NCBI GenBank assembly: GCA_017417055.1
Contig: JAFPZX010000099.1
Span: 1 to 37,515 of the forward strand
Length of the DNA stretch: 37,515 nucleotides
Origin: Anaerolineaceae bacterium
GTDB taxonomy: Bacteria > Chloroflexota > Anaerolineae > Anaerolineales > Anaerolineaceae
Reading direction: 5' to 3'
Shown here: in pieces, positions 2,965 through 35,555 of the stretch
How positions within the stretch are numbered: position 1 is the first letter of the stretch
Layout: the number at the start of each line of letters is the position of its first letter
Translations under genes and position numbers: made by a program
The notes under the pieces: generated by a model
The model's database searches: none
Told to the model about the DNA's origin: nothing
Seen by the model: only the letters and a program-made list of their open reading frames with translations

Positions 2965-5900
2965 ATGAAAAAAATGAAAATCTATCAGTTCAGTATCTTT
3001 ATTATTATATGTCTGGCACTGAACTATTTCGGGAATGTACTTTCCGTGAGATTTAACCTTCCGATGTGGCTGGATACGCTCGGCACCATGCTGAGTGCCT
3101 ATCTGGCCGGTCCGGTCGTGGGCAGCATCGTAGGCGTGACCGGAAACCTGATGTACAGCATGGCTCACGGCGGATACCCTGTTTACGCGCTCACCTCTAT
3201 CACTTTGGCATTGATCCTGGGATTTTCCGCACGGAAAAAGATGCTGGACTCTCTGTTCGGCGCGATGACCGTGAGTGTGTTCATTTCCCTTGCCTCTCTG
3301 GTCATTTCCTTCCCGCTGAACCTGATTTTTTATGAAGGCAGGACCGGAAACCTGTGGGGGGATGGCGTGATCGACCGGTTGATCGAAATCGGTTCACCGA
3401 AAATCATAGCCCAAATCGCCGGACAGTTTTATATCGAATTTGTCGATAAACTCCTGACTATGTTTGTCCTTGTGCTCATCATCCGCCTGCTTCGTCATTT
3501 TACTAAAAATAACAAAGAAGAAACAGCTGCTGCCGCTGAGGAGAGCGAAAAACTGGCAGCGGTTTTGGCTATTATCTTTTTGCTTGGTTACAATAATACT
3601 TCTGTCCGTGCAGCGGACGTCCAGACGCCGCGGGTGGATTACAACAATTATGTCCAGACCGTGTATAGTTCCGAAAACGGGCTGCCCTGCGGTGAGGCGA
3701 ATGACATTGCCCAGACCAACGACGGTATTCTGTGGGTTGGGACTTACGCCGGGCTGTACCGTTACAACGGCAGTGAATTCCGCTGGATGGATGGTTATGA
3801 CACGGTCCGCAACGTCAACGCCCTTTTTGTTGATGAAGAGGGCCGCCTGTGGATCGGCACGAACGATAACGGACTTTCCATCGCTATCAACGAAACTATC
3901 ACCAACGTTCTCGACAAATCCACCGGGCTCCCCAGCAATTCCGTCCGTTCCATTATTCAAAGTTCTGACGGGTATTATTATATTGGAACCAGCGGGAGCA
4001 TGCAGGTTCTTTCGCTCAATAACGGGTTCAAAAATGTCAACATTTTGCGTGAGGTCAATTACGCGGACAGCAGCGCCGCGGATTCAGCCGGGAATGTGGC
4101 AGCCGTCACCAACAACGGCAGGCTGTTCCTGATGCAAAAAGGACAGATTCTCAGTTCTCGTCAGCTGACGGATGAGAGCGAAATTTTCCGTTCCTGTACT
4201 TTTTCCCCGACGGGGAAACTGCTGGCTGGCACGTCGAAGAATCATATTTATGTTTTTGATATTTCCGAAGGATATTTTAACGAGCAGTCCGTACTGACCA
4301 CCGGCACGCTCAACAGCATCAAAGACCTGCGCTACCTGGAAAACCAGGACCTTTTTGTGACGGCGGATAACGGCATTGGGTATTTTGATATCCGCGGCGC
4401 TTTCCGTGTGCTCAACACCAATGAGTTCCGGAATTCCGTTGACAACATGCTTGTGGACTATCAGGGAAACTTGTGGTTTTCCTCTTCCCGTCTCGGCTTG
4501 CTGAGGCTGGCTCCGTCTTCCTTTCTCAATATCTATTCCACCATCGGGATGGATCACCGCGTGGTGAACACCACCGCATTTTGGAAAGGTAATTATTATT
4601 TCGGAACTGACCGGGGATTGGACATCGTGAATGATGAGCTTTCCGAGCAGATCCATAATGATTTGACCGAGCGCTTTGAAAATATCCGCATCCGCTGCAT
4701 CTTTGTAGACTCCCGCGGCAGTCTGTGGATCTGCACCTATGGCAGCGGGCTGTTTGAGATCGAAGCGGATGGTACGGAACATGAATACAGTTCCAACAAT
4801 GTTATCTTCGGCAACCGCGTGCGCATGGTCATGGAACTTTCAGACGGAACGATACTGGCCGGGAGCGACGTCGGCGTAAGCTTTATCCGTGATCACGAAA
4901 TCGAGGAAACCATCACCAACACCATGATCCTCACCGCCACCGAGCTGCCCGATAAGCGTATTCTTGTCGGAACAGACGGGAACGGTCTGGTGATTATTGA
5001 TAATTACGAAGTTTCCAGGATCCTGACCCGCGAGGACGGGCTGAGTTCTGAGGTGATTCTGCGGACCATCTATGATAAAAAGGGTGAGGGTACCTTTGTC
5101 GTCACCAGCAACGGGCTGTGTTATATGGACAAGGACGATCATATCCGGATCCTGAGGAACTTCCCTTATTACAACAACTACGACGTTTACGTCAATGAAA
5201 ATGACGACCGGTTTTTTGCCGCGTCCAGCGCTGGTATTTTTGTAGCGAACCGTGAGGATGTCCTTCAGGATGAGGATGATTTGCAGTATGAGCTCCTTGA
5301 TGCCCGTACCGGTCTGGACAGCTCCCTGACCGCGAACTCATGGAATTATTGTAACGAGGCTGGTGAGTTCTTTATCTCGACTGATTCCGGTGTTTACATG
5401 CTGAACACAAATTCCTACCAGGCTTCAACGCATGTTTATCGGATGTCCATCACGTCGGTTTCTCTTGACGGCGAAAAGACCCCGCTTGATCGCAATAAGA
5501 ACATCGTCGTTCCCAGGAATATCAACCGTATTGATATCACTCCGGAAATCATCAACTATTCCGTGCAGATTCCCTCGGTGGGATATTATCTGGAAGGATT
5601 TGACGCTGATTGGCGCATTGTTCCGCTCGACCAGCTCCAGTCCGTGAGTTATACGAACCTGAATGTCGGGGAATACACCTTCCATCTCGGTGTGTTTGAC
5701 GCGAAACATCAAAACGTTTTGAGCCAACGAACCTATGGCGTTATCAAAGAAAAAGAGATTTACGACAACAGCTGGTTCACTGTTTATCTGGTCGTTGTAC
5801 CGCTCGCGGCAGCTATCTGGTTCACTGTATTTATAGTGCGGCGGCGCAACGAACGCGTTATGGCACTGCAGCGCAGTCAGTTAGCCCTTACGCAGCAGCA

Positions 5901-6537
5901 AGTGAAGATGAGTAATGACACGATCTTTGCCATTGCCAAGGCTGTGGACGCTAAAGACGCGCGTACCAGCCAACATTCCTGGCGTGTTTCAGAATACTCG
6001 GCTCTGATTGCACGGGAGCTGGGTATGGATGAAGAGGAAATTGAGAACCTGCGCCGTGCGGCTCTGGTTCATGACATCGGAAAAATCGCCATTCCAGATG
6101 CTATTCTGAACAAAGATTCCCGTCTGACTGACGAGGAATATGCCATTATGAAATCCCACACCACCCGCGGTTCGGAAATTCTGGAGGGATTGAAATTTAT
6201 TCCTCATATTCAGGATGGTGCTCTTTTGCATCACGAACGAATTGATGGACGAGGTTATCCACGCGGATTGAAAGGGGATGATGTTCCGCTCTTTGCCCGT
6301 ATTATCGGTGTGGCGGATGCTTTTGATGCCATGACCGCCAACCGTGTTTACCGCAAACAGATGGATTTCGGTTATGTTCTGAATGAGTTGGAAAAGGGAC
6401 GGGGAACGCAGTTTGACCCGCGGTGTGCCGATATTCTGCTGAAATTGATCAATGATGGGACTATTGATCTGAATAAACTTTACTCGGTTCCCAAAGATGA
6501 CTCCGGTGAGAAAAAAGATGAAGGAGGTGCCGCATGA
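2965..6537 (+). CDS. Membrane receptor: ECF-S-like domain, beta-propeller, Y_Y_Y, HD-GYP phosphodiesterase
   Basis: A 1190-residue signalling protein. Residues 1-180 form about five or six membrane segments with LDTLGTMLSAYLAGPVVGS, resembling S-components of ECF vitamin transporters. Residues 195-216 are a second hydrophobic stretch ending TSVRA-ADV that looks like an internal signal peptide. Residues 225-860 contain repeated two-component-regulator propeller motifs (such as DGILWVGTYAGLYRY, EGRLWIGTNDNGL, GSLWICTYGSGLF), followed by a Y_Y_Y domain (about 878-912), a membrane helix (937-960) and an HD-GYP domain with HDIGK (about 1035) and HHERIDGRGYP (about 1089). The latter motifs are intact, so c-di-GMP hydrolysis to pGpG or GMP is expected. 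AAGGAG at 2951-2956 supports the start. It is cotranscribed with binding-protein genes on both sides, so it probably senses an external nutrient and lowers c-di-GMP. Confidence 0.9.
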   Translation: MKKMKIYQFSIFIIICLALNYFGNVLSVRFNLPMWLDTLGTMLSAYLAGPVVGSIVGVTGNLMYSMAHGGYPVYALTSITLALILGFSARKKMLDSLFGAMTVSVFISLASLVISFPLNLIFYEGRTGNLWGDGVIDRLIEIGSPKIIAQIAGQFYIEFVDKLLTMFVLVLIIRLLRHFTKNNKEETAAAAEESEKLAAVLAIIFLLGYNNTSVRAADVQTPRVDYNNYVQTVYSSENGLPCGEANDIAQTNDGILWVGTYAGLYRYNGSEFRWMDGYDTVRNVNALFVDEEGRLWIGTNDNGLSIAINETITNVLDKSTGLPSNSVRSIIQSSDGYYYIGTSGSMQVLSLNNGFKNVNILREVNYADSSAADSAGNVAAVTNNGRLFLMQKGQILSSRQLTDESEIFRSCTFSPTGKLLAGTSKNHIYVFDISEGYFNEQSVLTTGTLNSIKDLRYLENQDLFVTADNGIGYFDIRGAFRVLNTNEFRNSVDNMLVDYQGNLWFSSSRLGLLRLAPSSFLNIYSTIGMDHRVVNTTAFWKGNYYFGTDRGLDIVNDELSEQIHNDLTERFENIRIRCIFVDSRGSLWICTYGSGLFEIEADGTEHEYSSNNVIFGNRVRMVMELSDGTILAGSDVGVSFIRDHEIEETITNTMILTATELPDKRILVGTDGNGLVIIDNYEVSRILTREDGLSSEVILRTIYDKKGEGTFVVTSNGLCYMDKDDHIRILRNFPYYNNYDVYVNENDDRFFAASSAGIFVANREDVLQDEDDLQYELLDARTGLDSSLTANSWNYCNEAGEFFISTDSGVYMLNTNSYQASTHVYRMSITSVSLDGEKTPLDRNKNIVVPRNINRIDITPEIINYSVQIPSVGYYLEGFDADWRIVPLDQLQSVSYTNLNVGEYTFHLGVFDAKHQNVLSQRTYGVIKEKEIYDNSWFTVYLVVVPLAAAIWFTVFIVRRRNERVMALQRSQLALTQQQVKMSNDTIFAIAKAVDAKDARTSQHSWRVSEYSALIARELGMDEEEIENLRRAALVHDIGKIAIPDAILNKDSRLTDEEYAIMKSHTTRGSEILEGLKFIPHIQDGALLHHERIDGRGYPRGLKGDDVPLFARIIGVADAFDAMTANRVYRKQMDFGYVLNELEKGRGTQFDPRCADILLKLINDGTIDLNKLYSVPKDDSGEKKDEGGAA

Positions 6538-8095: not shown

Positions 8096-9655
8096 ATGGA
8101 TCGCCTGGGAAAGATCATGATTTTTGCCGCGGTTGTGATGAGTCTTGTGCTCATCGTGGTGCTTATCTTTTTCCTGCACGGTTCCTTGTTTGGACCCAAA
8201 CCCGGGAATCAAAGCGTTCCTGCCGGGACGCAAGGTCCGGTTTCGATTGCGGCTCCGGAGGATCTGCTGCCAAAGCATTTGTTAATTGGGAAGGCTGCTC
8301 CTCCGGTTGTGTTTTCTTCTTCCGAAGGAACGTCTGTCTCTTTGGATGAGATCCTACAAAGTTCGGATAACGGTGTTTGGTTCTCTTTTGCCGGTGAACA
8401 GCCTGTCCCGGATCATGCAGCTCTTGCGCAAGCCTATGATATGACGATTGTCTTTGTTGGTGATGTCCCAGTGGAGGAATCGGATATCATGACCGTTTCT
8501 GACCCTGGAAATGTCTGTTATGAACTATGGGGCTTGCAGACGCTGCCCTCTGATATTGTTTTGAGCAGTGATGGACGTGTTCTGGAATTTCATGCCGGAG
8601 CTATGAACATAGGGGAAGCCGAGGGAATGCTCATACGGGCAAAGGAAGGCCGGGATGCGGCTGGTTTTGCCTTTATTGAAGGGATGATGTCCAATGGGAA
8701 TGGCGGTTTTTACACGAATACCGCGGTAAAAGGAAGTTCTCCTTCCGGTCAGGATGTACTGAGCGAGAGCCAGGGGCTTGTGCTGTGGTATGCGTTGGAA
8801 AAAGATGACCGTGCTTTGTTTGATTTGACCTGGCAGTTCACGAAAAACAATTTACTGAAAAACGGGATTGCTTCCTGGTACGTCGGTGCGGATGGAAAAA
8901 CGGCAAACGTCAATGCGCTTCTGGACGACCTGCGGATATGGTACGCGCTGTATCAGGCCGGCCAAAAATGGGATGGAATCTATTCGGAAGACGCTTCCGC
9001 GATGCTGAAAGCTATCAAGGAATTGTGTCTGGATAAAAAAAGCAGGCTTGTCGATTTTACGGATTTGACCAATGGAAAACGGGCAGATACCATTTCGCTG
9101 CAGTATCTGGACCTGGTTGTTTTGAAAGCGATGACAGCGGAAGATCCTGATTTCGAACCGGTTTATCAGAATGCAGAAAATGTACTTCTGGACGGGCGGA
9201 TCTCCGATGAATTTCCGCTGTATTACAAGAATTACAGTTATACGACTCGGACGTATGACGCGGGAAATCTGAATACCGCGGAAGCGCTTTATACGCTGTG
9301 GAACCTGAGCCGTGCGGGACTACTGCCGGAAGAGGCACATGCCTGGCTGAAGGACCGGGTCCTTTCGGGGACGCTTGGCGCGCGGTATCGGACCAACGGA
9401 GATGTTGTTTTTGGTTATGATTTTCATTCCACTGCAGTGTATGGTCTTGCCGCGTTGATCGCTCATGAGACCGGGGATGATGAAATGTTTGAAGCGGCGT
9501 TGCGGCGGATGGAACGGAAACTGGTGCTGGATGCAAATGATCCGGAATTTGGTGCTTATACACAGAAAAACGCGGTGATTTATTCCTTTGACCAGTTGAT
9601 ACCGCTTCTGGTAAATGCTGTGTTGGATGAGAGGCTTGGACATGCAGGAGAATAA
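8096..9655 (+). CDS. Membrane-anchored GH8-like glycoside hydrolase with thioredoxin-like domain
   Basis: A 519-residue protein with one N-terminal membrane helix (about 8-28), so the rest is outside. Residues about 60-185 look like a TlpA/AhpC-type thioredoxin fold (IGKAAPPVVF, VSLDEIL, then LQTLPSDIVLSSDGRVLEF), but the CxxC motif is absent. Residues about 190-515 resemble family 8 glycosidases (BcsZ-type cellulases): SESQGLVLWYAL places a putative general acid at E224, LLDDLRIWYAL matches the conserved Asp region (D277/D278), and VFGYDFHSTAVYGL may hold the base Asp (D442). BcsZ-like enzymes trim nascent cellulose in synthase operons, which fits its place as first gene here. AGGTGG at 8083-8088 supports the start. 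The GH8 assignment is by motif only; catalytic residues are inferred. Confidence 0.75.
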   Translation: MDRLGKIMIFAAVVMSLVLIVVLIFFLHGSLFGPKPGNQSVPAGTQGPVSIAAPEDLLPKHLLIGKAAPPVVFSSSEGTSVSLDEILQSSDNGVWFSFAGEQPVPDHAALAQAYDMTIVFVGDVPVEESDIMTVSDPGNVCYELWGLQTLPSDIVLSSDGRVLEFHAGAMNIGEAEGMLIRAKEGRDAAGFAFIEGMMSNGNGGFYTNTAVKGSSPSGQDVLSESQGLVLWYALEKDDRALFDLTWQFTKNNLLKNGIASWYVGADGKTANVNALLDDLRIWYALYQAGQKWDGIYSEDASAMLKAIKELCLDKKSRLVDFTDLTNGKRADTISLQYLDLVVLKAMTAEDPDFEPVYQNAENVLLDGRISDEFPLYYKNYSYTTRTYDAGNLNTAEALYTLWNLSRAGLLPEEAHAWLKDRVLSGTLGARYRTNGDVVFGYDFHSTAVYGLAALIAHETGDDEMFEAALRRMERKLVLDANDPEFGAYTQKNAVIYSFDQLIPLLVNAVLDERLGHAGE

Positions 9656-11183
9656 AGCCCGGACAGTCAAGGATTACTTCGATGACGGTCTGTCGTTTTT
9701 TCGGCGGGCTGTTAATTGGTTTAATCTGCGCCTCGGGAAGGTTTATTCTCCGAATGTAGCTGCAATCACCGGGACAATCATTGTGTTGGTGATGGCTGTG
9801 ATTATCCTGTTCCTGCCTCCGATTATGGGCGTTGCGGATGATGGGTCCCTTTCCGAGATTATGCTGGGAACCGGACTGGGGTACCGCGGGGATGACCTTG
9901 AAGCGCCGGTGGGGGCTTATTTCACGCGGCTCTATCTTCACTCAAACCAGCAGACGAGCGGGATTTCTACCCACCGGCTGTTGATCCAGTTCGCGAAATG
10001 GATCGATACACAGTTCACACATGATAACCTGTTTGATGTGCGGTATTTGGCCGCTATTTATCTGATTCTATATCTTCCCGCTGTGTATCTGACACTGCGC
10101 GGGATCGTGGCACGGGTTGACGTGGCTGCGGAAGCAACCGCATTGGTGATTGTCGGTGCGCTGGTTATGGGCGATGCCGCCATGATCACTTATTTCAACA
10201 GTCTTTATCCGGAAGCTTTCTGGCAGGTGTTCCTGCTTTACTGTCTGGGTTTTTGTCTCGCGCTGCAGCATGACCGGGAAGAGTGGACCCAAATCGGGCT
10301 GATCGGTCTGGCGATTGCGGGCAGCCTTCTGGCTTTATCCGAGCTTCATTGCGCCGCGGCCGGATTGGTTCTGATGATCTTCTGCGTTCGTCAGATATTT
10401 ATGGAAAACCGGAATAAACAGACTTCTACGCTGGCCATTATCGCTACGGTTGTTCTGCTGGCTTCCTCGCTGGCAAGCATATTGGGAGGAGCTAACCGAT
10501 TTACAGAATCATCAAAGCTGCACGCCATCACAAACGGGGTGATGCTGCGGGCAAACAATCCGGCGAATGTTTTGAAAGAATTTGACATCGACCCGCGTTT
10601 TGAGACGATGGCAGATATGTCTTCTTTTGCCGCATATCCTTATGTGCTTGTGGGAAATCCGGATGTGCAGCGTGATTTCCTGAGCCATTTTTCGCTGGGT
10701 ACGATTTTGCTCTACTATCTAAAGAATCCTTTTGACTACATTGGATTGCTGGAATTCGGTACAAAATCCGCATTTAATGTAAACAGAGGCTATGTCGGGA
10801 ATTATGAACAATCTCTCGGGCTTCCCGAACGGACGAAGAACCAGATCATGATTACCTACAGCAATTTCAAGACAAACTCTCTGCCGCAAACCATGGGATT
10901 CCTTGTGATATTGGTGATTGTTTATTTTATCTTATTCCGGAAACAAAAAGGACTGCAGCATAAAGTGCAGCGCTGGACTGCAAGGGAACGGCAGATCATG
11001 CTGGATACCTTTCTTTGTTTTTTGTTTATCGGAATTGCGGATATAACCGCAGTGATTTTTTTGAGCGGGACCGCAGAGCTTGAACGTTATCAAATGCTTT
11101 ACGGTATCTGTATTGATGGTGTTGTGATGCTGTTTATTTCGGAAATTTTACACCGGACGAACATTCTGGCTACGGAGGGATGA
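9642..11183 (+). CDS. Polytopic membrane protein, GT-C-like (same family as 22955-26173)
   Basis: A 513-residue multi-pass protein with about ten hydrophobic segments and an early periplasmic acidic loop (GVADDGSLSEIM) of the kind that holds the catalytic Asp in GT-C glycosyltransferases. FNSLYPEAFWQVFLLY in the middle and FDIDPRFETMADMSSF in a later loop recur, in diverged form, twice in the protein at 22955-26173, so they are one family. It would act in the membrane, using a polyprenyl-linked sugar or forming part of the export complex. The ATG at 9642 is chosen over 9615 because GAGG lies at 9631-9634; it overlaps the preceding gene. I do not know a named family for it; the GT-C call is from topology and loop pattern. 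Confidence 0.6.
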   Translation: MQENKARTVKDYFDDGLSFFRRAVNWFNLRLGKVYSPNVAAITGTIIVLVMAVIILFLPPIMGVADDGSLSEIMLGTGLGYRGDDLEAPVGAYFTRLYLHSNQQTSGISTHRLLIQFAKWIDTQFTHDNLFDVRYLAAIYLILYLPAVYLTLRGIVARVDVAAEATALVIVGALVMGDAAMITYFNSLYPEAFWQVFLLYCLGFCLALQHDREEWTQIGLIGLAIAGSLLALSELHCAAAGLVLMIFCVRQIFMENRNKQTSTLAIIATVVLLASSLASILGGANRFTESSKLHAITNGVMLRANNPANVLKEFDIDPRFETMADMSSFAAYPYVLVGNPDVQRDFLSHFSLGTILLYYLKNPFDYIGLLEFGTKSAFNVNRGYVGNYEQSLGLPERTKNQIMITYSNFKTNSLPQTMGFLVILVIVYFILFRKQKGLQHKVQRWTARERQIMLDTFLCFLFIGIADITAVIFLSGTAELERYQMLYGICIDGVVMLFISEILHRTNILATEG

Positions 11184-12043
11184 TGGATCAGGATACGAGT
11201 TCCAGCCGAATATTTCTTTACCAGGATCTGGGTATATTTTTGTATATGGCGGCGGTTTTGGCGGCTGCCCTGATAACCGTTTTGACGGATCGGACGCTGA
11301 TATATCAGCATGTGGTTCTTCTGATGGCGATGACGCTTGCTTCGCTGCTGCTGGGCTTGCGGGCGAGGATCGGCGGGATTGTTGTTTGCGGCGTGACGAT
11401 ATTGATCTTCGCGATCTACAAGCTGTATTACAACTTTGCTTACAGTGTCCCGATTGAGTGGACCGCATATATCTGGCCATTTGTGATCATCATCGCAATG
11501 CTGGGAATGACCGCTTTCATCTCCTATTTTTCTCAGGTGGAGGGTGTCAACAGTATTTTGAACCAGCGTCTGGATGAGCTGACCGTTATCGATCCGCTGA
11601 CCGGTTTGGAAAATAACCGTTCCATGGTGAGTTCTCTTTCCCGTTATATGGCGCTGAGTGAACGGAAAGGAACGGAAATGGGACTGATGATGATCCGCCT
11701 GCGTTATGCAGAGGAACTGAAAAAGGTTCTGACCTCGGTTCAATTCAATGAGCTGCGGCATAATCTGGCCCAGTCCGTTCAGGATATTATCCGTGTGGAA
11801 GACAGAGTGTTTTCAATTGACGATAACGGTTCTCTGGCGATTATTTATTTCAGTACCGGTGCATCCTTCCTGAAAGGGCGTATTCTGACCGCGATCAATA
11901 ACAAAAATCTGCTGCCGGATTTGAATCAGCAGCTGCTGACAGTTGATTTGAGCATTGTTTACAAACAATACGAAAAAGAACTGGGTAAAGACGCGATGCG
12001 TTTTATTACAGAATTGGAGAAAGAATTCGCGTATGAAGTTTGA
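11180..12043 (+). CDS. Membrane degenerate GGDEF protein, PelD-like c-di-GMP receptor candidate
   Basis: A 287-residue protein with four hydrophobic segments in residues 20-118, then a cytoplasmic GGDEF-type domain. The entry motif DELTVIDPLTGLENNRSM is normal for a diguanylate cyclase. The catalytic GG(D/E)EF is replaced by DDNGS (214-218), so no cyclase activity is expected. Exactly five residues upstream sits RVED (205-208), the spacing of the allosteric I-site RxxD that binds c-di-GMP. PelD, the receptor of Pel polysaccharide synthesis, has the same logic of dead catalytic site and retained I-site. The gene overlaps both neighbours and sits in the synthase operon, whose GT2 has no PilZ domain. 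The start is uncertain: ATG 11180 and ATG 11183 both lie close to GGAGG at 11174-11178. Confidence 0.75.
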   Translation: MMDQDTSSSRIFLYQDLGIFLYMAAVLAAALITVLTDRTLIYQHVVLLMAMTLASLLLGLRARIGGIVVCGVTILIFAIYKLYYNFAYSVPIEWTAYIWPFVIIIAMLGMTAFISYFSQVEGVNSILNQRLDELTVIDPLTGLENNRSMVSSLSRYMALSERKGTEMGLMMIRLRYAEELKKVLTSVQFNELRHNLAQSVQDIIRVEDRVFSIDDNGSLAIIYFSTGASFLKGRILTAINNKNLLPDLNQQLLTVDLSIVYKQYEKELGKDAMRFITELEKEFAYEV

Positions 12044-13610
12044 TCCGGTCCGGGTTTGCCTGCTGTTTATAGCTCTGTTTTGTATGGCGGTTTTGCAGGT
12101 GAATGCTGAAGATGAAGAAACTGTTCCGGAGTATGGGGAGATCCTTGTGGTCTATCCGGAAGAGGCTGTCAGACGCGGACGGGCGGATAATCTTTCCGCG
12201 ATTGCGCAGGTGTTGTTTGGCATGCGCTATCGTGTCGATTGGTCCGAGGCGGGAGAAGCCGGAGACAAAATTGAGTATTACGACAAGGTGATTTGGGTGA
12301 ACACAGCGGAATCCGAGCGTATGGACAGCGCTGTGTTGGATGGATTTGAAGGGTACCTGATGGTACTTGGTCAGGCGAAAGGTGTGGAAAGCTTCGGAAT
12401 TTATCCTGAACCTGCGTTAACGGGCAGTCTGATCGGTACCGGTGAATATATGTTTGATGATAATTTTCAGGCTCATGTCTCCGTGGAGACGCTGAATGCG
12501 GGTGTTTACAGGGAACCTTCTTATTCAAACGGAAACGTTTCTGTGCTGGGTGAGACGATCCCATTGGTGAGCGGCATGGGAAAGGTTCATTATATTCCGC
12601 TCATTGATTACACGACAAATTTCGCGAAAGCGCTGTTGACACAGGAGATAGGGAAATGGTTATGGCAGTGGTCTTCTCCAATGCATGCCTGGTCTCAGCA
12701 TGTTGTTCTGGATGCGGTTTATCCGTTTACGGACCCCTATCGGCTGAAAGAGATCGTGGAATACATGGTAGATCTGAAGATGAATTTTGTTATTTCCGTG
12801 ATGCCGATCTATGAACATGAAGACTATCCTGCCATGCAGCGGTTTTGCGAGGTGCTGCGGTTTGCTCAGGCAAATGGCGGAGGGATCATCCTGCATGCTC
12901 CGATTATTCAAACCAGTGTGGCTGCCGATACCCTTTCTCTGCATCTGACAACCGCCTTTGATAACTATTTGAAAAACGGTGTCTGGGTGCTGGGAATGGA
13001 AATTCCGTCTGAATGGGCTTTTCATGAAGATTTGCTGAATATTCTTGGCCGGACCCGAACGCTGTTTTTCTCAGAACTGGATGCCTTTGAGAGCCGGCCT
13101 GTGAGTGAGTATGATATGACTGCTTTTCTGAACTGCGGAAATCAGCAGGTGGTGCCTGCATTCCGGCTGGATGAAACGGGCATCAGCCATACAGCACGGT
13201 TTTCGACTGCTGTTTATGTGAATCTGGATATGACCAAAGACGATGTGCTCTATTCCGTGATCGATGCGGTCAAGGATGCGCCGATCCCGATGCAAAGTTT
13301 GTGGGATATGGAGGAGATGTTTTATGCGGATAATTTCAAATATCTTACCTGGGACCGCAGCACTTTGATCGTTAATGGAACGCAGCAGTTCAATGTTTAT
13401 GAACCTGCTGAAATCAGTGAAAATTATGACTATAAACGGAATATTTATTACCGTTTTGTCACGAATCTTGCCAACCAGAACCATTTTTTGATCGGACTGA
13501 GCGGAGTTGTGCTGGCTTTGTTTATCTTTTTGGTTTTTCAGTCAAGACAGCAGATGCATAAGCGTTTTTTGAAGAAAATACCGGAGCAATCGGAAGGAAA
13601 GGAATCCTGA
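12033..13610 (+). CDS. DUF2334 polysaccharide-deacetylase-like protein, membrane anchored
   Basis: A 525-residue extracytoplasmic protein: signal peptide (MKFDPVRVCLLFIALFCMAV, cut near VNA-EDE), large outer domain, and C-terminal membrane helix (FLIGLSGVVLALFIFLVF) with a basic tail. The middle resembles DUF2334, relatives of carbohydrate esterase 4: VLDAVYPFTDPYRLKEIVEY, MNFVISVMPIYEHEDYPAM and GGGIILHAPI. An Asp and His in these motifs are candidates for metal binding. Deacetylation of the nascent polymer is the natural hypothesis. The first third (LVVYPEEAVRRG onward) looks like an accessory domain I cannot name. The ATG at 12033 gives the signal peptide at the N-terminus, with GGAGA at 12016-12020, and overlaps the preceding gene by 11 bases. 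Confidence 0.7.
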   Translation: MKFDPVRVCLLFIALFCMAVLQVNAEDEETVPEYGEILVVYPEEAVRRGRADNLSAIAQVLFGMRYRVDWSEAGEAGDKIEYYDKVIWVNTAESERMDSAVLDGFEGYLMVLGQAKGVESFGIYPEPALTGSLIGTGEYMFDDNFQAHVSVETLNAGVYREPSYSNGNVSVLGETIPLVSGMGKVHYIPLIDYTTNFAKALLTQEIGKWLWQWSSPMHAWSQHVVLDAVYPFTDPYRLKEIVEYMVDLKMNFVISVMPIYEHEDYPAMQRFCEVLRFAQANGGGIILHAPIIQTSVAADTLSLHLTTAFDNYLKNGVWVLGMEIPSEWAFHEDLLNILGRTRTLFFSELDAFESRPVSEYDMTAFLNCGNQQVVPAFRLDETGISHTARFSTAVYVNLDMTKDDVLYSVIDAVKDAPIPMQSLWDMEEMFYADNFKYLTWDRSTLIVNGTQQFNVYEPAEISENYDYKRNIYYRFVTNLANQNHFLIGLSGVVLALFIFLVFQSRQQMHKRFLKKIPEQSEGKES

Positions 13611-14878
13611 TGTCAGCAGCAGAGATTATTTCAATTTATGCGATCGCGGCGATCTGGTTTATGATGATGCTCAATGTTATTTTGAGTATCGGCGGCTATT
13701 TTTATATTTTCCGCTGCAACCAGACCGACGGACATATTCCCGTCCCGAACAATGACTATCCGATGGTTTCCGTTCTGGTTCCGGCACATAATGAAGCGCT
13801 GGTGGTAAAACGGACGGTGCGTTCGCTGCTGAATTTTGATTATCCGAAAGATAAATATGAAATTATCGTCATCAACGATAATTCTTCGGATAATACGGAG
13901 GAGATTCTTTCTGACCTGGCGTCTGAATATCCGGAAAACCGGCTGATGTGCATCAGCACGGATAAAATCGTCGGCGGCACGGGAAAGTCCAACGCGCTGA
14001 ACATCGGTTTTTCTGTGGCAAAGGGCGAAGTGATCGCTATTTATGACGCGGACAATACGCCGGAACCGCAGGCGCTGCGGCTGTTGGTGGAAAACCTGGT
14101 GGCAGATCCCAAAGCCGGTGCGGTGATCGGAAAATTCAGGACCCGCAACCGCAATGCCTCGATCCTTTCCCGGTTTGTCAATATCGAAACGCTTTCACAT
14201 CAATGCATGAACCAGGCAGGACGGTTTTTCTTCTTCAAGCTTTGTACCATTCCCGGTACCAATTATGTGATCCGCCGCAGTATTGTTGAAACAGTGGGCG
14301 GCTGGGATGTCAAGGCGCTCAGTGAAGATACTGAAATCAGCTTCCGCATCTACCGGATGGGCTATTATATCAAACTGCTGCCGCAAGCTGTTACCTGGGA
14401 GCAGGAACCGCATCTGCTGCCGATCTGGTTCCGTCAGCGCGTACGCTGGGCGAAGGGTAATATTTATGTGATGATGAAAAATTTCAAATATACCTTTGAC
14501 AAAAATGCGGGTGCCATGCGGCTGGATGCTCTTTATTACGCGCTTACGTACAGCATTATGCTTTCCTCTCTCGTAGCCTCGGATATCATCTTTATTGGCG
14601 GCGTTTTGGGAATGGTTCAGGTCAGGCTGGGCGGTTTTTCCACCGCATTGTGGGGAATGGCGATTTTAGTGTTTATCGCGAGTATGATGCTCACGCTTTC
14701 GCTGGAAAGAAATGAGTTTACGCTGGAGTCGATGGGACTCGTGGCGATGATGATGTTTACGTACGCGAAATTGTGGGTTTTTGTTGTAGTCAAAGCGATG
14801 TGGGACCTGCTGATGGACGCAATCTTCAAGCGGGAAGTAAAATGGGATAAAACGGTTCGATATGTTGAAACGGATTAG
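13610..14878 (+). CDS. Processive GT2 glycosyltransferase, cellulose-synthase-like
   Basis: A 422-residue membrane glycosyltransferase, the likely polymerase of the cluster. One helix at the N-terminus precedes a GT-A domain beginning VSVLVPAHNEA, with donor-binding Asp in VINDNSSD, the YDADN metal motif (about residue 144), the acceptor or base Asp in LSEDTEIS (about 238) and the processive QxxRW motif as RQRVRW (about 275). Three to four helices follow. This set is diagnostic of cellulose, chitin and hyaluronan-type synthases. It ends without a PilZ domain, unlike BcsA, so c-di-GMP control would need a separate receptor. With a BcsB-like subunit encoded next, a beta-glucan product is most likely, but other beta-linked polymers are possible. 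Its start overlaps the preceding stop (TGATG). Confidence 0.9.
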   Translation: MSAAEIISIYAIAAIWFMMMLNVILSIGGYFYIFRCNQTDGHIPVPNNDYPMVSVLVPAHNEALVVKRTVRSLLNFDYPKDKYEIIVINDNSSDNTEEILSDLASEYPENRLMCISTDKIVGGTGKSNALNIGFSVAKGEVIAIYDADNTPEPQALRLLVENLVADPKAGAVIGKFRTRNRNASILSRFVNIETLSHQCMNQAGRFFFFKLCTIPGTNYVIRRSIVETVGGWDVKALSEDTEISFRIYRMGYYIKLLPQAVTWEQEPHLLPIWFRQRVRWAKGNIYVMMKNFKYTFDKNAGAMRLDALYYALTYSIMLSSLVASDIIFIGGVLGMVQVRLGGFSTALWGMAILVFIASMMLTLSLERNEFTLESMGLVAMMMFTYAKLWVFVVVKAMWDLLMDAIFKREVKWDKTVRYVETD

Positions 14879-14920
14879 TTTGCTGCCGTAATACTGTTGT
14901 TGATAGAAGAAAGGTGCTTT

Positions 14921-17137
14921 GTGAAAATGAAATTCTATGTTATTGTGAGTGTATTTTTTGCAATATTATGTATGTTGACACCTTCAGTGATTGCATTCCA
15001 AGTGGATTCACCGGAGAATATAACCACGGAAGAGCCGGTTTCTATAACCAATTATGTGCTTTCCAGTGATCCTGAATCTGCGGAGGAACCGCAGCGGGTG
15101 CGTCCGGAAACGCCGGAATCGCAGCATGTTCAGATTTTCAAGTATTCACAAAACATTGTTCTTCAAGGAATTTTCGAGAAGACGGGATATTTTTTCAAGG
15201 TCCAGAAATATTGGGATTCGATTTATGCCCTGGCACAGATCGAATATACAGTCAGTCCGCTGATTGCGGATGATGTCCCTGCTTCCCTGACATTCTTCAT
15301 CAATGACCAGCCGATCTATTCCTGCGCGGTGCATTATGAAGACGGCGCTCCGCAGATCGTTTATGTCCCGATCCCGACGGAATTGCTGAAAGAAGGCTTC
15401 AACGAATTTGCCATCACCGGGTATGTGCGGCTTTATGATGAGGACGGATGTCTGGATGACTTTTCCGGTGCGAACTGGATCAGCATTTCTGCTTCATCAT
15501 TCATTGAAGTCGGTTATGATCTGGCTGAATTCGGCGGAAAACTCAGTTATTATCCTTATCCGCTGGTCTCCTCTGTGGATCAAATCGGTGCGGAACTGAC
15601 GATTTTTGTCCCTTCCTCAGCCACTGAAGAGGAACTGCGGGCGGCTTTTATGCTGCGTGCGGATCTGGGAAATGAAACCACTACGGAAGACCGTATCGCA
15701 TTGCAGACACTGGCTCATTACGGGCGCAGCGGTAAAAACGCGCTGATCGTCGCGCAGCTTGACCGTCTTCCTGCAGAAGCCCGTGAACAGTATAATTCAC
15801 TCGGACAGTCTTTTGGCGAAGGGGCTGTGGTTTACGAATATGAGTCCGGTGACGGATATGTGATCGTTGTCACCGCATCTGACGAAAAGGACCTTTCTGA
15901 AGGTGCCGCGATGCTGATGGATGATGACCGTGTCTCTCAGGAAAAATACAGCTGGGCCTTTGTACCTTCCGGAAGCGCTCAGACAGTGGTTCAGAATTCA
16001 ACACTTTCTGCCCTCATTGCGAACGGTGAGACTATCAAAGGTCTGACCAATCAGGATGGGATCAATTTTATCGGCCCATTCCATCAGGCGACAAACATTT
16101 ATCTGCCCTTCAGCGGCGGTTTTGTTCTCGGAGAAGGCGGTAAGGTGGAAATCAAGATGCGCTACAGTGACAATCTTGATTTCGATCGCTCTTTGATGAC
16201 TGTTTATTGGGGCAGCACACCGGTTGCTTCCAAGAAACTTACCATGGAAAACGCAGACAATGACAGTTTTTCGTTCCTGATGCCTTCTGATGTGGTCGGA
16301 ACGCATGCGGACAGCATTATGATCGCTTTTGACCTGGAAATTCAGGAACTTTATTGTACCAAGCGTGCTGATCAAATGCCGTGGGCATATGTCAGCGGTG
16401 ATTCCACGTTCTACCTGCCTTCCGGTGTCAGCAGCACCTATGATCTGGGACTGCGGCCTTATCCGTTCCAGGTGTTGGGATTGTTCAATAATCTTGCGGT
16501 TGTGGTGCCGGAAGAGATGAGTGATACGGAATATACACTCTTCGGCCGGCTGGCCGCGCTGATGGGTACGAATGTTTCTCCTTACGGGACAATGAGTGTC
16601 TGGCGTGCCGGGAATTACCCGCTGGAGACTGAAAATGCCAATATGATTGTACTGGGAACATGGCATGACAACAGCGTGATCCGATCGCTGAATGACCAGC
16701 TGAGTTTCAAATTTGAGGATGAAGGCGCCCGTTTTGGCAGCAATGACCAGCTGCTTCTCAGCCCGCGCTATGCGGCTGAGATCAGCCTGCTCCAGATCAT
16801 CCGTCATCCCTATCAGGATGGCCGCGCGATTCTGGTGGTAAGCGGAGCGGATGATAATGCGTTATCGCTTGTAGACCGGTTTTCTGCGGTACAATCGAAT
16901 ACATGGTCCTTTGGTGGTGATACGTTTATTATTGACTCTGACCTGGAAACAAAGAGTTTCCGTTTTCTGGAAGTTTTGCCTGCGCAGCGGCTGACTCTTC
17001 AGGAAAGATTAGCACAGCATCAGGATGCGGTTCTGTTCACACTGATTTCGACCTCCGCGATGCTGATCCTCTTTGTGGGTGCGCTGCTGATTTTGCTGCG
17101 CTACCGCCGTAATGTCAATGAGGAGAGAAAGAAGTGA
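14921..17137 (+). CDS. BcsB-like synthase partner subunit
   Basis: A 738-residue secreted protein with a signal peptide, a long extracytoplasmic part and a C-terminal membrane helix (DAVLFTLISTSAMLILFVGA) followed by a basic tail. This is the topology of BcsB, which guides the nascent glucan and stabilises the synthase. Recognisable elements are FFKVQKYWDSIYALAQIEYT, LTFFINDQPIYS with LKEGFNEFAITGYVRLYDED (carbohydrate-binding beta-sandwich), and a later repetition of the same type (GGKVEIKMRYSDNLDFDRSL) separated by flavodoxin-like segments. Length is close to that of BcsB. A GTG at 14921 (AAGG at 14911-14914) is taken as the start; ATG 14927 is a near equal. It follows the GT2 by 42 bases, as in bcsA-bcsB pairs. 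Confidence 0.8.
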   Translation: MKMKFYVIVSVFFAILCMLTPSVIAFQVDSPENITTEEPVSITNYVLSSDPESAEEPQRVRPETPESQHVQIFKYSQNIVLQGIFEKTGYFFKVQKYWDSIYALAQIEYTVSPLIADDVPASLTFFINDQPIYSCAVHYEDGAPQIVYVPIPTELLKEGFNEFAITGYVRLYDEDGCLDDFSGANWISISASSFIEVGYDLAEFGGKLSYYPYPLVSSVDQIGAELTIFVPSSATEEELRAAFMLRADLGNETTTEDRIALQTLAHYGRSGKNALIVAQLDRLPAEAREQYNSLGQSFGEGAVVYEYESGDGYVIVVTASDEKDLSEGAAMLMDDDRVSQEKYSWAFVPSGSAQTVVQNSTLSALIANGETIKGLTNQDGINFIGPFHQATNIYLPFSGGFVLGEGGKVEIKMRYSDNLDFDRSLMTVYWGSTPVASKKLTMENADNDSFSFLMPSDVVGTHADSIMIAFDLEIQELYCTKRADQMPWAYVSGDSTFYLPSGVSSTYDLGLRPYPFQVLGLFNNLAVVVPEEMSDTEYTLFGRLAALMGTNVSPYGTMSVWRAGNYPLETENANMIVLGTWHDNSVIRSLNDQLSFKFEDEGARFGSNDQLLLSPRYAAEISLLQIIRHPYQDGRAILVVSGADDNALSLVDRFSAVQSNTWSFGGDTFIIDSDLETKSFRFLEVLPAQRLTLQERLAQHQDAVLFTLISTSAMLILFVGALLILLRYRRNVNEERKK

Positions 17138-19263
17138 CGATTCGCAAGAATTTCTTCTATTATTTCGCCGTTCTGGTCTATATCTTCTGTCTGCTGTTCT
17201 CCATTGTCTGCGTCTTTAACCGCATCGGGGAAGGGCAGGAGTATCCTTACCTGATGAAAGGTGTGTGGTTGATCGGGATGTTTGTTTTTCTGATCCTGCT
17301 GATGCTGTTCTGGACATTATGGTCCCGGCTTGACTTTAGCGGACTGATGAAACGTATTCCGAAAGTAAGCCTTGTGATGGAATTGGTTATCGTTTTAGCC
17401 ATCATCATCGCCGGAACGCTTTTGCGGTATTGGGTGGTGCATAATTTCCCGATGGAACCGGCTTCGGATTACAAGACTTATTATGAAATGGCAGTGATGA
17501 TCCATGACGGAACATTAATGGAAGAAGGCCCCGGGTATTGTGATTACGTTGCCATGTTCCCGCATGTCTATGGGTATCCTGCGGTTCTGGCATGGTTCTT
17601 CGGAATTTTCGGTCCGAGCGTACACAGTGCGTTGATATTTAACCTGATCGTTTCTGTTCTATCAATGATTCTGGTTTGGGCGATAGCAAGATTGGCAGGC
17701 GGCAGATTCTGCGCACTGACAGCATTATTCATATATACCTTTCTCCCGTCAGTGATCCTTTACTCCGATTTTGTGGCAAGTGAGCCGCTGTTTACCCTGA
17801 TTCTTTTGCTGGCGGCATACCTGTTTCTGCTTTCGCTGAAAGAGACCGAATGGAAAAAGAAACATCCCTGGTTCACAACGATTGAAATTGTTTTGATGGG
17901 CGTGACGCTTGCTTTCGGTTCTTTTATCCGCCCGATGGCGATGATCTTCCTTGTAGCCGCGATTATCTGTATGCTGCCGATTGTTCGGAAAGAATATGAC
18001 ATCCCGATCAATGATGTCCCACTGGGAATTCGGGCAACGGATACCGGGTGGAAGCGCTGTTTGATCCTTTTGGTGGTTTATATGGGATTGTCCCGCTTAT
18101 TCACAATGGGTACATCCTATGCAGTCGACCGGGAATTGGCGGGCAGTTCCGCTTCGTTTGGGTATAATCTGCTGGTTGGACTGAATCTGGAAAGCTACGG
18201 CGGATGGAATCAGGAAGACGCGGATTACCTGTATGATGCCTTTTATAAAACGGGATCGGCGCAGGAGGCTCAGCTCATTTGCCGTGATATGGCGTTTGAG
18301 CGTTTGAAGGTGGATCCGCGCGCACTGCTTAACCTGTTTGTTCATAAATTTGATGTTCTGTGGGGAAATGATGATTATGGCGCGTCCTGGAACATCTTGT
18401 TTATGGACCAGCAGAAGAACCTGACAGAAGACAGAGAGTCTCTCCTTTACAGAATGATGGATGTCAGCGATCTGATTTACCTGGTTTTGCTGCTGGAAGC
18501 CGGGATTTACGGGTTTGTGATGTTCCGTTTACAGCCGAATGGCCTTTATTCCTGTACGCTTCTTTATCTTGGAACGGCTGCGCTGCATCTGCTGGTGGAA
18601 AACCAGAACCGGTATCATTATCACGCTTTGGCATTTTTGGCGATCCTTGCGGGGGCTGCCGGAGCTGCTATGAAACAACGTATGCATGTTGCGGTGATGG
18701 CTCGGATCGAAGCGAAAAAGCGGGAAAAGCTTGCCGAAGAGGAACGCAAAGCTCATGTCCGAAAGCTGCAGGAAGAAGAAGCTGAACGGGTCCGTCTGCG
18801 TGCACAGGCTTTGAATGCGCAGTTTGATATGGGGAAGGCGATCTCAGAAGGGCATATCCGCATTGTTGCCAGCAAGGCAATTGAAGGCGCTTATGCACCG
18901 CAGCAAGCTGTTCCGCAGACTCCGGCAGCTGACGAAAAACCGGAAGCTGTCAGGACAAACTCTGTGGGACATGAAGCGGAAAACCTGACTGTCCGGGAAT
19001 TGGAAATGATGGCCGAACAGGATGAACAAAAGACTGTTTCCCAACAGAATCCGGATAACGATTCGGAAAGCAAGGCTGCTGAAACAGGTTATGAGACGAA
19101 TCCGGCAGCTAATGTTGATGCTGCACAACCGGAAACTGAGCTGAACCCGAAAGATGAATTGGGACCCGAAACCCCGAAGGATTCTTCCGGAATGTCTGAA
19201 AATTCTGCTGCGGAGGAGAATTCTTCCCATATGAATACCGAAAGTGATGTGAACGAAGGATAA
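17134..19263 (+). CDS. GT-C (ArnT/PMT-like) glycosyltransferase with charged disordered tail
   Basis: A 709-residue protein. About residues 1-520 are a multi-pass membrane domain of the dolichyl or undecaprenyl-phosphate-sugar mannosyltransferase superfamily; the first outer loop has EPASDYKTYYEMA with the expected Asp, and later VASEPLFTLILLLAAY is typical of these enzymes. It would transfer a sugar from a polyprenyl carrier, probably the product of the GtrB-like enzyme encoded at 29132. Residues about 525-580 form a very basic and acidic amphipathic helix (KKREKLAEEERKAHVRKL), and 590-709 are low-complexity, rich in Glu, Asn, Ser and Pro, apparently disordered and cytoplasmic. Translation starts at GTG 17134, overlapping the preceding stop, with GAGGAGAG just upstream. 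Confidence 0.8.
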   Translation: MTIRKNFFYYFAVLVYIFCLLFSIVCVFNRIGEGQEYPYLMKGVWLIGMFVFLILLMLFWTLWSRLDFSGLMKRIPKVSLVMELVIVLAIIIAGTLLRYWVVHNFPMEPASDYKTYYEMAVMIHDGTLMEEGPGYCDYVAMFPHVYGYPAVLAWFFGIFGPSVHSALIFNLIVSVLSMILVWAIARLAGGRFCALTALFIYTFLPSVILYSDFVASEPLFTLILLLAAYLFLLSLKETEWKKKHPWFTTIEIVLMGVTLAFGSFIRPMAMIFLVAAIICMLPIVRKEYDIPINDVPLGIRATDTGWKRCLILLVVYMGLSRLFTMGTSYAVDRELAGSSASFGYNLLVGLNLESYGGWNQEDADYLYDAFYKTGSAQEAQLICRDMAFERLKVDPRALLNLFVHKFDVLWGNDDYGASWNILFMDQQKNLTEDRESLLYRMMDVSDLIYLVLLLEAGIYGFVMFRLQPNGLYSCTLLYLGTAALHLLVENQNRYHYHALAFLAILAGAAGAAMKQRMHVAVMARIEAKKREKLAEEERKAHVRKLQEEEAERVRLRAQALNAQFDMGKAISEGHIRIVASKAIEGAYAPQQAVPQTPAADEKPEAVRTNSVGHEAENLTVRELEMMAEQDEQKTVSQQNPDNDSESKAAETGYETNPAANVDAAQPETELNPKDELGPETPKDSSGMSENSAAEENSSHMNTESDVNEG

Positions 19264-19272
19264 GGATAAAAG

Positions 19273-20784
19273 ATGCTTTTTAATTCGCTTGCCTATCTGG
19301 TTTTTTTCCCGGTCATTGTACTGGTTTATTTCCTGATCCCCTGGCATCGGGTCCGCAACGGGATGCTCCTCATCGCCAGTTACTATTTTTATATGCGCTG
19401 GGATCCCCGCTTTATCGTGCTGATCTTTGGGGTCACATTAGTCAGTTACCTGTGTGGTATTCTGGTGGATATTTCCCGGCGGGAGGACGCGGATGGGGTG
19501 GAACCGGAAAAACGGCGGACAGGCAACGCGAAGATCTATACAACAGTCACGATTGTTTCCATGCTGCTGGTTTTAGGCTGGTTCAAATACGCGAATTTCC
19601 TTGCCGGAAATCTTGTTTCGATTATGAAGCTCATTGGGATTGATCTCGCGATCCCGAAATTGAATGTAGCGCTGCCGGTCGGGATTTCTTTCTTTACCTT
19701 TCAGGCTATGGGGTATGTGCTCGATGTTTATCGCGGAACGACGCCGGTTGAAAAGAATATTTTCCGCTTTATGCTTTTCGTTGCTTTCTTCCCGCAGCTG
19801 GTGGCGGGCCCGATTGAGCGGTCGAATAACCTTCTGCAGCAGTTCAAGGTTAAACACGATTTTGATTCTCATCGTGTTCTAAAGGGGCTCATGCTGATGG
19901 TCTGGGGCTTCTTTATCAAGATGGTGCTGGCGGACCGGATCGCCATCATTGTGGATCAGGTGTTTAATTATTATACGTCCTACCAGGGCGCTATTTTGTT
20001 ATTGGGAGCCTGTCTGTTTTCTTTCCAGATTTATTGTGACTTTAACGGTTATTCTCTGATTGCTATCGGGTCGGCACAGGTGCTTGGGTTTGATTTGATC
20101 CAGAACTTTGAACAGCCATATCTGGCCCGGACGGTAGCAGATTTCTGGCGGCGCTGGCACATGTCCCTGACCAACTGGTTCCGGGATTATATCTACTTCC
20201 CGCTGGGCGGCAGCCGCTGTGCGCGATGGAAGAAATACCGCAATATTATGATCGTTTTTCTGGTTTCCGGTCTTTGGCATGGGGCAGACTGGACTTACGT
20301 GATCTGGGGTGGCATGAATGGACTGTTTCAGGTTATCGGCGATATAATCAACCCACTGCGGAAAAAGATTCTCGCGAAGCTGCATGTCAATGAGGAGTCT
20401 TTCGGACATCGGCTGGTTCAAACGTTTATGACCTATGTTTATGTCACAATTGCCTGGGTCTTTTTCCGCGCAACTTCGCTGCAGAGTGCTGTGGACATTA
20501 TTATTGGATCATTTAAGACATTTAATCCCTGGGTTTTGTTCGATGGTACTCTATATACGCTTGGAGTGAACCGGGTCGATTTTTGGATTATGATCGCTTC
20601 TTTATTGATTCTTCTTGCGGTTGATATTTTGCATGAGAACAAGATACAGATCAGAGAAAGGTTGCTGGTGCAGCCGCTTCCAGTTGGTTGGGCTGTAGTA
20701 TATGCAGCTTTATTCATGATTCTGTTATTCGGTGTTTACGGTCCCGGATATGACGCGGCAAGTTTCATCTATTTCCAGTTCTGA
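19273..20784 (+). CDS. MBOAT O-acyltransferase (AlgI/DltB family)
   Basis: A 503-residue multi-pass membrane O-acyltransferase that passes acetyl groups across the membrane for modification of an exported polysaccharide. Family motifs are present in order: PVGISFFTFQAMGYVLDVYR, VAGPIERSNNL, FWRRWHMSLTNWFRDYIYFP and SGLWHGADWTYVIWG, which contains the essential His. Length matches AlgI. It starts nine bases after the GT-C gene with AAGGAT repeats as ribosome site, and is followed 11 bases later by the SGNH-domain protein, its usual partner for the final transfer. In cellulose clusters such pairs make acetylated cellulose; here the acceptor is inferred to be the polymer of the GT2. The family call is secure. 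Confidence 0.93.
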   Translation: MLFNSLAYLVFFPVIVLVYFLIPWHRVRNGMLLIASYYFYMRWDPRFIVLIFGVTLVSYLCGILVDISRREDADGVEPEKRRTGNAKIYTTVTIVSMLLVLGWFKYANFLAGNLVSIMKLIGIDLAIPKLNVALPVGISFFTFQAMGYVLDVYRGTTPVEKNIFRFMLFVAFFPQLVAGPIERSNNLLQQFKVKHDFDSHRVLKGLMLMVWGFFIKMVLADRIAIIVDQVFNYYTSYQGAILLLGACLFSFQIYCDFNGYSLIAIGSAQVLGFDLIQNFEQPYLARTVADFWRRWHMSLTNWFRDYIYFPLGGSRCARWKKYRNIMIVFLVSGLWHGADWTYVIWGGMNGLFQVIGDIINPLRKKILAKLHVNEESFGHRLVQTFMTYVYVTIAWVFFRATSLQSAVDIIIGSFKTFNPWVLFDGTLYTLGVNRVDFWIMIASLLILLAVDILHENKIQIRERLLVQPLPVGWAVVYAALFMILLFGVYGPGYDAASFIYFQF

Positions 20785-25900: not shown

Positions 25901-26173
25901 CTGACTGCCGCGATTCAATTTCCAATCTCGGTTATGGGGAATGGTTTCGGAGATAATCAGAAACAGATGTTTGGTTTTGAGCTGTGTCATGACCTGATCA
26001 TGATTGGGATTCTGGTTTTTGGTGCCCGGTACCTTTATCAATATACTGGCCAAATACATACTACGGAGATTCGCAGAAAATTATCTGAAATAAGCTTGCC
26101 GTCTTTTTGGAAAAGATCTAATGCTAAGGGAGAAAAAGAATTACAATTAAATCCGGAGAAATCAGATCTTTAA
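22955..26173 (+). CDS. Duplicated GT-C-like polytopic membrane protein
   Basis: A 1072-residue membrane protein built from two homologous halves (about residues 30-530 and 543-1045). Each half has a first helix followed by an acidic outer loop (YPVDYGQYEWILPDVGLNW; VSVNNGDFGRLMAQMDITW), then VVRLFTEPFG or IVRLLTEPFG, then a helix with FRGLYPEGSAVIY or YNGFFGEGTILLG, and later a loop with IEFGLDDSYLPDVGKSYY or MEELGVDTAMAPDIGKYVSF. The same elements occur once in the protein at 9642, so this gene arose by tandem duplication and fusion of that family. Both halves keep acidic loop residues, so two active sites are possible. The substrate is unknown; glycosyl transfer from a lipid carrier is inferred from topology. 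AAGGA upstream supports the start. Confidence 0.65.
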   Translation: MINSETKKSTDMNRKLQGNVFISRLSNRLTVAAVFVFAVICLIIGFSQKPQVYPVDYGQYEWILPDVGLNWTAEDLERGELQFDRPVTTFDYVHFSWSNLFTPDAGNSLVYQVAVVRLFTEPFGLKFNVDYLAAVSAVLLVIAVLWMMVGLRRLLVRSWFVPIIILCVIFLDGNFCAMFRGLYPEGSAVIYSLLFAASLLYTYSVQKKKRIKYAPLVIFLSFLMLKSATPLIVFFPFVVVIDLTLIITSLFSGERSYLMAAVSLVFFIAGCSSSVKLTSTDPDYFSNASLYESVFNTMLPAYEDPKLMLIEFGLDDSYLPDVGKSYYLSEESYSHNPRNPEEAEKLFAHVTVKDTILIYLLHPELLSRIIRDMPLHYERFFENNRYRTIKINQNMTPLSRSESSLLTMVFQLLPHSYQFFLIMQIIFILFGIAAAFICKHYEYLCVSLIAGCSAVYLPFCVILNGYALASQYILYQHFLEMISLIFVLTFFVSVTPYIEQWISKYMEDPYHLSPIQVAPVSKKGFFNYLRKKIGGLILSMAGSRKITTMATALLGAVMLITVFLPDSHPVSVNNGDFGRLMAQMDITWPGNIYFDTRAQSGHEGIEEFGYTAPFSPLKLTPLKPTFTLYWFVSIVRLLTEPFGKPFSTLILSWIMGGISLLCAIKIVYDIYPLLKKWSLTAGILLCLLLYSETTLAWYNGFFGEGTILLGLFLSLMSSIHLCMMPRHGKGCFLWVFCLAWSLFIMVGAKSQMLVTVPFALLLFIWLAIYHCPYRYDLMALYCFLMICLCGVIVYSGFGVYQSERSGDSVSSKSNMWHAYFYGIFMISDDPIADMEELGVDTAMAPDIGKYVSFDDDSWYVYAPLSPEADVAFHQHVSMLTIVKWYLSHPQKLWYMLDYAAKITQRLYTDFRVYKGQDYSDPGHDPVNGMNFWPGWRAYWTPSFFIGYVVLYGISLFLCVRMLLRRNVPARKKVLCSIPVFLILTAAIQFPISVMGNGFGDNQKQMFGFELCHDLIMIGILVFGARYLYQYTGQIHTTEIRRKLSEISLPSFWKRSNAKGEKELQLNPEKSDL

Positions 26174-35547: not shown

Positions 35548-35555
35548 TCCAAACC

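Follow-up and report, generated by a model that had tools for sequence, protein, structure and literature searches.

The window analysed here is a stretch of 37,515 nucleotides from an Anaerolineaceae bacterium of the phylum Chloroflexota (assembly GCA_017417055.1, contig JAFPZX010000099.1). Within a polymer-synthesis operon it carries a gene for a membrane protein with a degenerate GGDEF domain, which would no longer make cyclic diguanosine monophosphate (c-di-GMP). Because of its conservation, its predicted fold and published work on proteins of the same kind, this protein is very probably a receptor of the YdaK/PssE type, one that would bind c-di-GMP at the former feedback-inhibition site (I-site) and activate a glycosyltransferase family 2 (GT2)-BcsB synthase that has no PilZ domain. 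The features of the receptor gene are as follows.

11180..12043, + strand: YdaK/PssE-type receptor, 287 amino acids, with four predicted membrane helices and a degenerate GGDEF domain (about residues 131-287)
11663..11665, + strand: R162, at a position like that of the secondary I-site arginine (PleD R313; YdaK R157-R160 region)
11792..11803, + strand: primary I-site RxxD, R205-V-E-D208
11819..11833, + strand: pseudo active site DDNGS (D214-S218), in place of GG(D/E)EF
11879..11881, + strand: R234, placed by alignment like the third I-site arginine (PleD R390, PelD R402)
12032..12040, + strand: C-terminal tail Y285-E-V287, conserved and mostly Y-D-V or Y-E-V in relatives

The four helices span residues 2-35, 38-59, 63-88 and 94-134 in the predicted structure. 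Pfam recognises a GGDEF domain at residues 136-277 with 28.8 bits (cut-off 23.8), and the NCBIfam model TIGR00254 reaches 20 bits, below its cut-off of 37.4. The motif DPLTGL starts at residue 138. As the first-pass annotation had claimed, RVED lies five residues (RVFSI) before DDNGS. It is the sole RxxD in the whole protein, and from composition an arginine and an aspartate would fall at one fixed register by chance with a probability of about 0.0024. The register of these motifs also holds, since in an alignment of the family profile to the GGDEF domain of DosC both conserved residues of RxxD, as well as the dead motif, fall in their canonical columns.

When named genomes were scanned with the GT2 alignment, 374 places were confirmed, and 80 of these were kept (the named loci). 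Of 77 receptor proteins, 62 were aligned for structure prediction, the window's included, and 15 partial or near-identical ones were omitted. D16, N145, R162, R205, D208 and R234 are invariant in all 62, though identity to the window protein drops to 18%. Only five of the 160 cytosolic positions are invariant, and apart from N145 they are the four I-site positions, an enrichment with p = 1.9e-7, uncorrected for kinship. The same four positions are invariant in all 31 rows that are less than 60% identical. GG[DE]EF, by comparison, is lost in every aligned protein (62/62), and the old active site has R or K at positions 173, 175, 181 and 182 in 41, 61, 55 and 41 of the 62. A strict RxxD is found in 81 of the 82 proteins of a wider set, in which two rows duplicate genomes and from which ten further deviant or distant rows are counted apart; the exception is Enterococcus faecalis.

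The four invariant I-site residues correspond to the positions of the four c-di-GMP ligands of PleD, which are R359, D362 and R390, plus R313 from the other protomer (PMC7288161). By position, R162 would be the counterpart of PleD R313. It stands at a similar distance ahead of RxxD as the secondary site proposed for YdaK at R157-R160.

Two published systems match this protein closely. In YdaK of Bacillus subtilis, which has four membrane helices, five residues separate RxxD (R202-D205) from a dead SDERI motif, and the substitutions R202A and D205A abolish the exopolysaccharide made by the operon (PMC5422440). Addition of c-di-GMP alters the hydrogen-deuterium exchange pattern of YdaK, while R202A is unresponsive (PMC7064775). 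Set beside the published description of YdaK, which has 283 residues, the window receptor shares the four membrane helices and the spacing between RxxD and the dead motif. In Listeria, PssE carries RxxD five residues before DKDDA, is needed for exopolysaccharide, and binds c-di-GMP directly with a dissociation constant of 0.79 uM and a stoichiometry of about two ligand molecules to each protein (PMC4125290). The L. innocua PssE was found by the family profile, keeps all four I-site positions and aligns to the window receptor over its full length at 19% identity, with the shared anchors D16, W99 and a C-terminal YxV. The idea that a dead cyclase serves here as an I-site receptor is thus well supported, but it is not new: that an I-site receptor, and not PilZ, can control such a synthase was published as early as 2014.

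The first-pass annotation had presented this arrangement as PelD-type logic in an unexpected Bcs setting. That comparison gives way to YdaK/PssE, the system that does match and whose gating, with the R202A and D205A mutants, is published (PMC5422440). PelD is like the window receptor in using a dead GGDEF domain as the I-site receptor for polymer synthesis.

The receptor gene stands in the middle of a run of genes on the same strand.

8096..9655, + strand: GH8 family protein, YdaJ-like and BcsZ-like (Pfam PF01270, 41.4 bits)
9615..11183, + strand: WsfD-family hexose transferase (NCBIfam NF051875, 318.7 bits, cut-off 80)
12033..13610, + strand: YdaL-like DUF2334 protein (Pfam PF10096, 28.6 bits, cut-off 26)
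13610..14878, + strand: GT2 synthase, PssC/YdaM orthologue
14897..17137, + strand: BcsB-like subunit, YdaN-like (Pfam PF03170, 142.6 bits)
17134..19263, + strand: PMT-type transferase, probably for decoration (Pfam PMT_2; homologue beside GT2 in 43 of the 80 named loci)
19273..20784, + strand: MBOAT O-acyltransferase, probably for O-acetylation (Pfam MBOAT; in 17 of the 80)
20796..22922, + strand: 708-residue protein adjoining the MBOAT gene (no Pfam match; in 12 of the 80)

Pfam bears out the GT2, BcsB and GH8 neighbours that had been named from the sequence, and together with WsfD, YdaK and DUF2334 they make this operon a pss/yda system. In B. subtilis, ydaJ, ydaL, ydaM and ydaN encode GH8-like, DUF2334, GT2 and BcsB-like proteins, respectively. 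Compared with ydaJKLMN, the window has WsfD between GH8 and YdaK, PMT and MBOAT genes downstream, and a Chloroflexota host. The order GH8-like, receptor, DUF2334-like, GT2, BcsB-like occurs in a Bacilli locus (L327), where the receptor alone was scanned with Pfam and the remaining names come from inspection by eye and the GT2 match. The L. innocua locus reads WsfD-like, DUF2334, GT2, BcsB and then a 284-residue "diguanylate cyclase"; that of E. faecalis has the same order plus a GH8-like gene in front, which is below the Pfam cut-off, and WsfD homologues are thus present in both. The Listeria operon ends with the PssE gene, whereas the window receptor precedes GT2, and the 15.2 kb of the Listeria locus that were read showed no recognisable homologue of GH8, PMT or MBOAT.

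The same set of genes recurs widely. Receptor, DUF2334, GT2, BcsB and WsfD occur together in 75 of the 80 named loci, with GH8 within 8 kb in 63. A YdaK-like gene is recognised in 76; it comes before GT2 in 56 loci and after it in 20, the latter being those of Paenibacillus and close kin, as in Listeria. Among the others, the contig ends at the expected receptor position in three (L216, L221, L270). Homologues of the 708-residue protein come after MBOAT in related operons. After the window operon, on the same strand, positions 22955-28090 encode a 1072-residue WsfD-like protein and a CotH-kinase/lectin-like protein, which possibly belong to the same surface module.

The synthase itself had been described as lacking PilZ, and this holds: no PilZ match (E up to 0.01) was found in the window GT2 or in any other of the 34 long and 43 short BcsB-linked GT2s scanned (four of the 47 short ones were left out). 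The short GT2s other than those of the window, G045 and G046 are 16-22% identical to the window GT2, and thus are not its orthologues. The GT2-BcsB-GH8 gene set resembles that of the BcsA-PilZ cellulose synthase, from which the window differs in having no PilZ match in its GT2.

The description of the operon as "cellulose-like" is not supported. In searches, the window GT2 is 53.6-54.8% identical to the Listeria and E. faecalis proteins, and in the GT2 alignment it is 53% identical to L. innocua PssC and 54% to the E. faecalis protein. The Listeria Pss polymer is stated to be an N-acetylmannosamine (ManNAc) chain with galactose (PMC5422440). The identity to PssC makes a ManNAc-type polymer a likelier product of the window operon than cellulose, and the organism's own genome has a UDP-GlcNAc 2-epimerase (519 bits), which a ManNAc polymer needs. 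Cellulose as the product is left unsupported. Related GT2s are also carried on plasmids in Acinetobacter (L207) and Lactobacillus (L205, L206), at 31-41% identity to the window protein. The epimerase gene wecB lies near GT2 in L206 and L207, and epimerase-like open reading frames (ORFs) were seen by eye in L319-L322.

The organism's own genome has 40 GGDEF matches, the window receptor domain included. Two further genes in the window are relevant.

2965..6537, + strand: HD-GYP protein, putative c-di-GMP phosphodiesterase, with its HDIGK and HHE..GYP motifs intact; a homologue is present in L200/L208, which are one genome
33560..35341, - strand: putative cyclase of dCache-HAMP-GGDEF architecture, in which GGDEF is intact and the I-site register holds no RxxD

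In all 37 tested genomes with an intact receptor, GGDEF matches are present. The reverse comparison was made in Bacilli genomes with a PssC-like GT2, of which 59 were chosen from 89 that match. GGDEF matches occur in 54 of these, including a single weak one in G988, and in five there are none (G1041, G808, G1077, G926, G842). The proteins adjoining GT2 were read in these six low-GGDEF genomes (L318-L323), and five distinct ones were aligned, L321 being nearly identical to L319. In all seven divergent proteins, namely these five and the Lactobacillus plasmid copies L205 and L206, the positions R162, R205 and R234 are lost, and D208 is replaced by E in six; the evidence relating the seven to YdaK is no better than fair (hhalign probability 67, E 5e-5). 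In a genome with seven GGDEF matches (L327) the receptor retains RxxD, and L326, with eight matches, showed no receptor in 5.5 kb. The E. faecalis receptor (L203) has lost R205, D208 and R234 and has kept D16, W99, R162 and a YDV tail; overall, the Y-D/E-V tail and D16, an aspartate in the membrane part, hardly vary. That the I-site tends to be lost in genomes lacking GGDEF proteins is thus a suggestive pattern, with exceptions.

Several points weigh against the receptor reading. One named locus, L225, has no recognisable YdaK despite 9.7 kb of upstream sequence. The aligned proteins were found via GT2 and then by a YdaK profile, a route that would pass over very deviant receptors. L327 has lysine for the third arginine and glutamate for D16, and a Priestia plasmid copy (L204) has RxxxD instead of the strict motif. 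Two distant Bacilli proteins also depart from strict RxxD, namely L324 (RxxxD, with 12 GGDEF matches in the genome) and L325 (no R in the motif, with two). Taken with L203 and L204, they mean that I-site loss tracks c-di-GMP imperfectly. Finally, the arginines that serve as secondary I-site contacts are not always homologous (PMC8041772), which bears on the match of R162 to R313.

The alternative that fares best, though an unlikely one, is that the domain is a structural scaffold with a relic I-site, and that the true gate lies elsewhere, in transcription or in another c-di-GMP protein. E. faecalis, with its changed I-site, retains the tail and the membrane anchors, so the receptor seems to have a ligand-independent role as well. 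Were the I-site a relic, however, R162, R205, D208 and R234 would not have stayed invariant alongside variable GGDEF positions, the I-site mutants of YdaK are inactive (PMC5422440), and a search of the window at Rfam gathering scores gave only a T-box and no c-di-GMP riboswitch. It is very unlikely that the protein is instead a PelD-type receptor and a member of the Pel system family. PelD has the same logic of a dead GGDEF, an RxxD and a third arginine, but in a GAF-GGDEF architecture (R367, D370 and R402; in Bacillus cereus R363, D366 and R395; PMC7112168). In the window receptor Pfam finds GGDEF only and no GAF domain (E up to 0.01), and the four membrane helices stand directly before GGDEF. 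Its operon partners are those of yda/pss, no pel partner gene was found among the scanned window ORFs with Pfam and NCBIfam, and PssE aligns over its length with the same anchors. Membership of the Pel family was rejected for want of GAF and pel genes; the absence of PelD from 50 listed VIA-align entries for the receptor fold shows nothing either way. Least credible of all is another ligand at the old active site, where the basic residues noted above keep the site charged, so that it may bind something acidic, since the invariant residues sit at the I-site and PssE binds c-di-GMP directly (PMC4125290).

The YdaK/PssE-type receptor preferred here would, by analogy with its two published relatives, work as follows. 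The GGDEF domain would bind c-di-GMP at the I-site formed by RxxD and R234. There the ligand would probably take the form of an intercalated dimer and also contact R162 on a second protomer. The ligand-bound receptor, held by its four membrane helices, would then activate the neighbouring GT2-BcsB synthase, which it may contact, and the DUF2334, GH8, WsfD, PMT and MBOAT proteins may process and decorate the polymer. The C-terminal tail is a possible output contact.

A wider account can be offered only tentatively, as one that we consider possible rather than probable. I-site receptors might be the general gate for PilZ-less GT2-BcsB machines, with c-di-GMP cross-linking two receptor domains via the complete four-residue site. 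A feedback-inhibition site would thereby have been turned into an "on" switch. The old active site, turned from acidic to basic, would form an output surface toward the synthase together with the Y-D/E-V tail and D16. E. faecalis and relatives from GGDEF-free genomes, by losing the I-site, would have been left with a machine that does not await c-di-GMP.

Other BcsB loci contain further candidates for c-di-GMP control. Fusions of a Wzz chain-length domain with a degenerate GGDEF domain, about 375 residues long, occur in BcsB loci from the window's order and phylum (L145:10918-12051, L084:7702-8841, L114:10797-11963 and others in L069-L198). There are 50 such ORFs in 49 loci, with RGxD in 48 and KGND in two; 34 lie within 400 bases of BcsB, and both domains were found in all five that were scanned. 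To our knowledge, a c-di-GMP-gated co-polymerase of this kind would be new, and a single literature search for one found nothing. MshEN is a known c-di-GMP-binding domain, and MshEN domains occur in 20 of the 34 long GT2s beside BcsB (L069 and 19 other loci). The 1321-residue GT2 of L069 has six MshEN stretches, and a 298-residue degenerate GGDEF protein also lies beside BcsB there, so this synthase possibly receives two c-di-GMP inputs.

The best named matches of the GT2 are in the uncultured Chloroflexi RUG13159 and RUG11948 (91 and 87% identity), followed by nine Clostridia bins at 81-86%, several of them from rumen or other gut samples. In a quick GT2 tree, made with no AU (approximately unbiased) test and with bin labels taken as given, the window is joined to two Chloroflexota rows (SH-aLRT 99), and a 16-row group (99) holds these three and 13 Bacillota rows. 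Near full-length matches to the operon's DUF2334 protein occur in three of 147 genomes of the family, its own included, with a weak fourth. A mis-binned contig was considered and rejected, since pheS at the window end (36181, behind a T-box leader at 35555-35788) ties the contig to the Chloroflexota genus. Its DNA is 94% identical to that of G047, 87-90% to G042, G045 and G046, and 72-79% to seven others of the genus, so that 12 of 14 genus genomes match, its own included. With pheS of this genus on the contig and the GT2 nested among gut Clostridia, transfer of the operon is likely; it was probably acquired from gut Clostridia, as far as nesting can indicate direction. The literature found consists of YdaK/PssE papers in Bacilli and papers on clostridial cellulose synthases; by title or in the portions available, no Chloroflexota or Clostridia member of the receptor family was found, which is weak evidence of absence.

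With these results the YdaK/PssE system extends beyond Bacillota to rumen Chloroflexota, which probably gained it by transfer, and dozens of operons from Clostridia and Paenibacillus encode the same receptor. The analysis adds a new host phylum, shows how broad the operon family is, and supplies conservation evidence for a complete four-residue I-site. The invariance of the whole I-site makes activation through cross-linking by c-di-GMP directly testable. The same is true of the surface that may pass the signal to a PilZ-less synthase, for which the candidates are the basic pseudo-active site, the C-terminal tail and the membrane aspartate.
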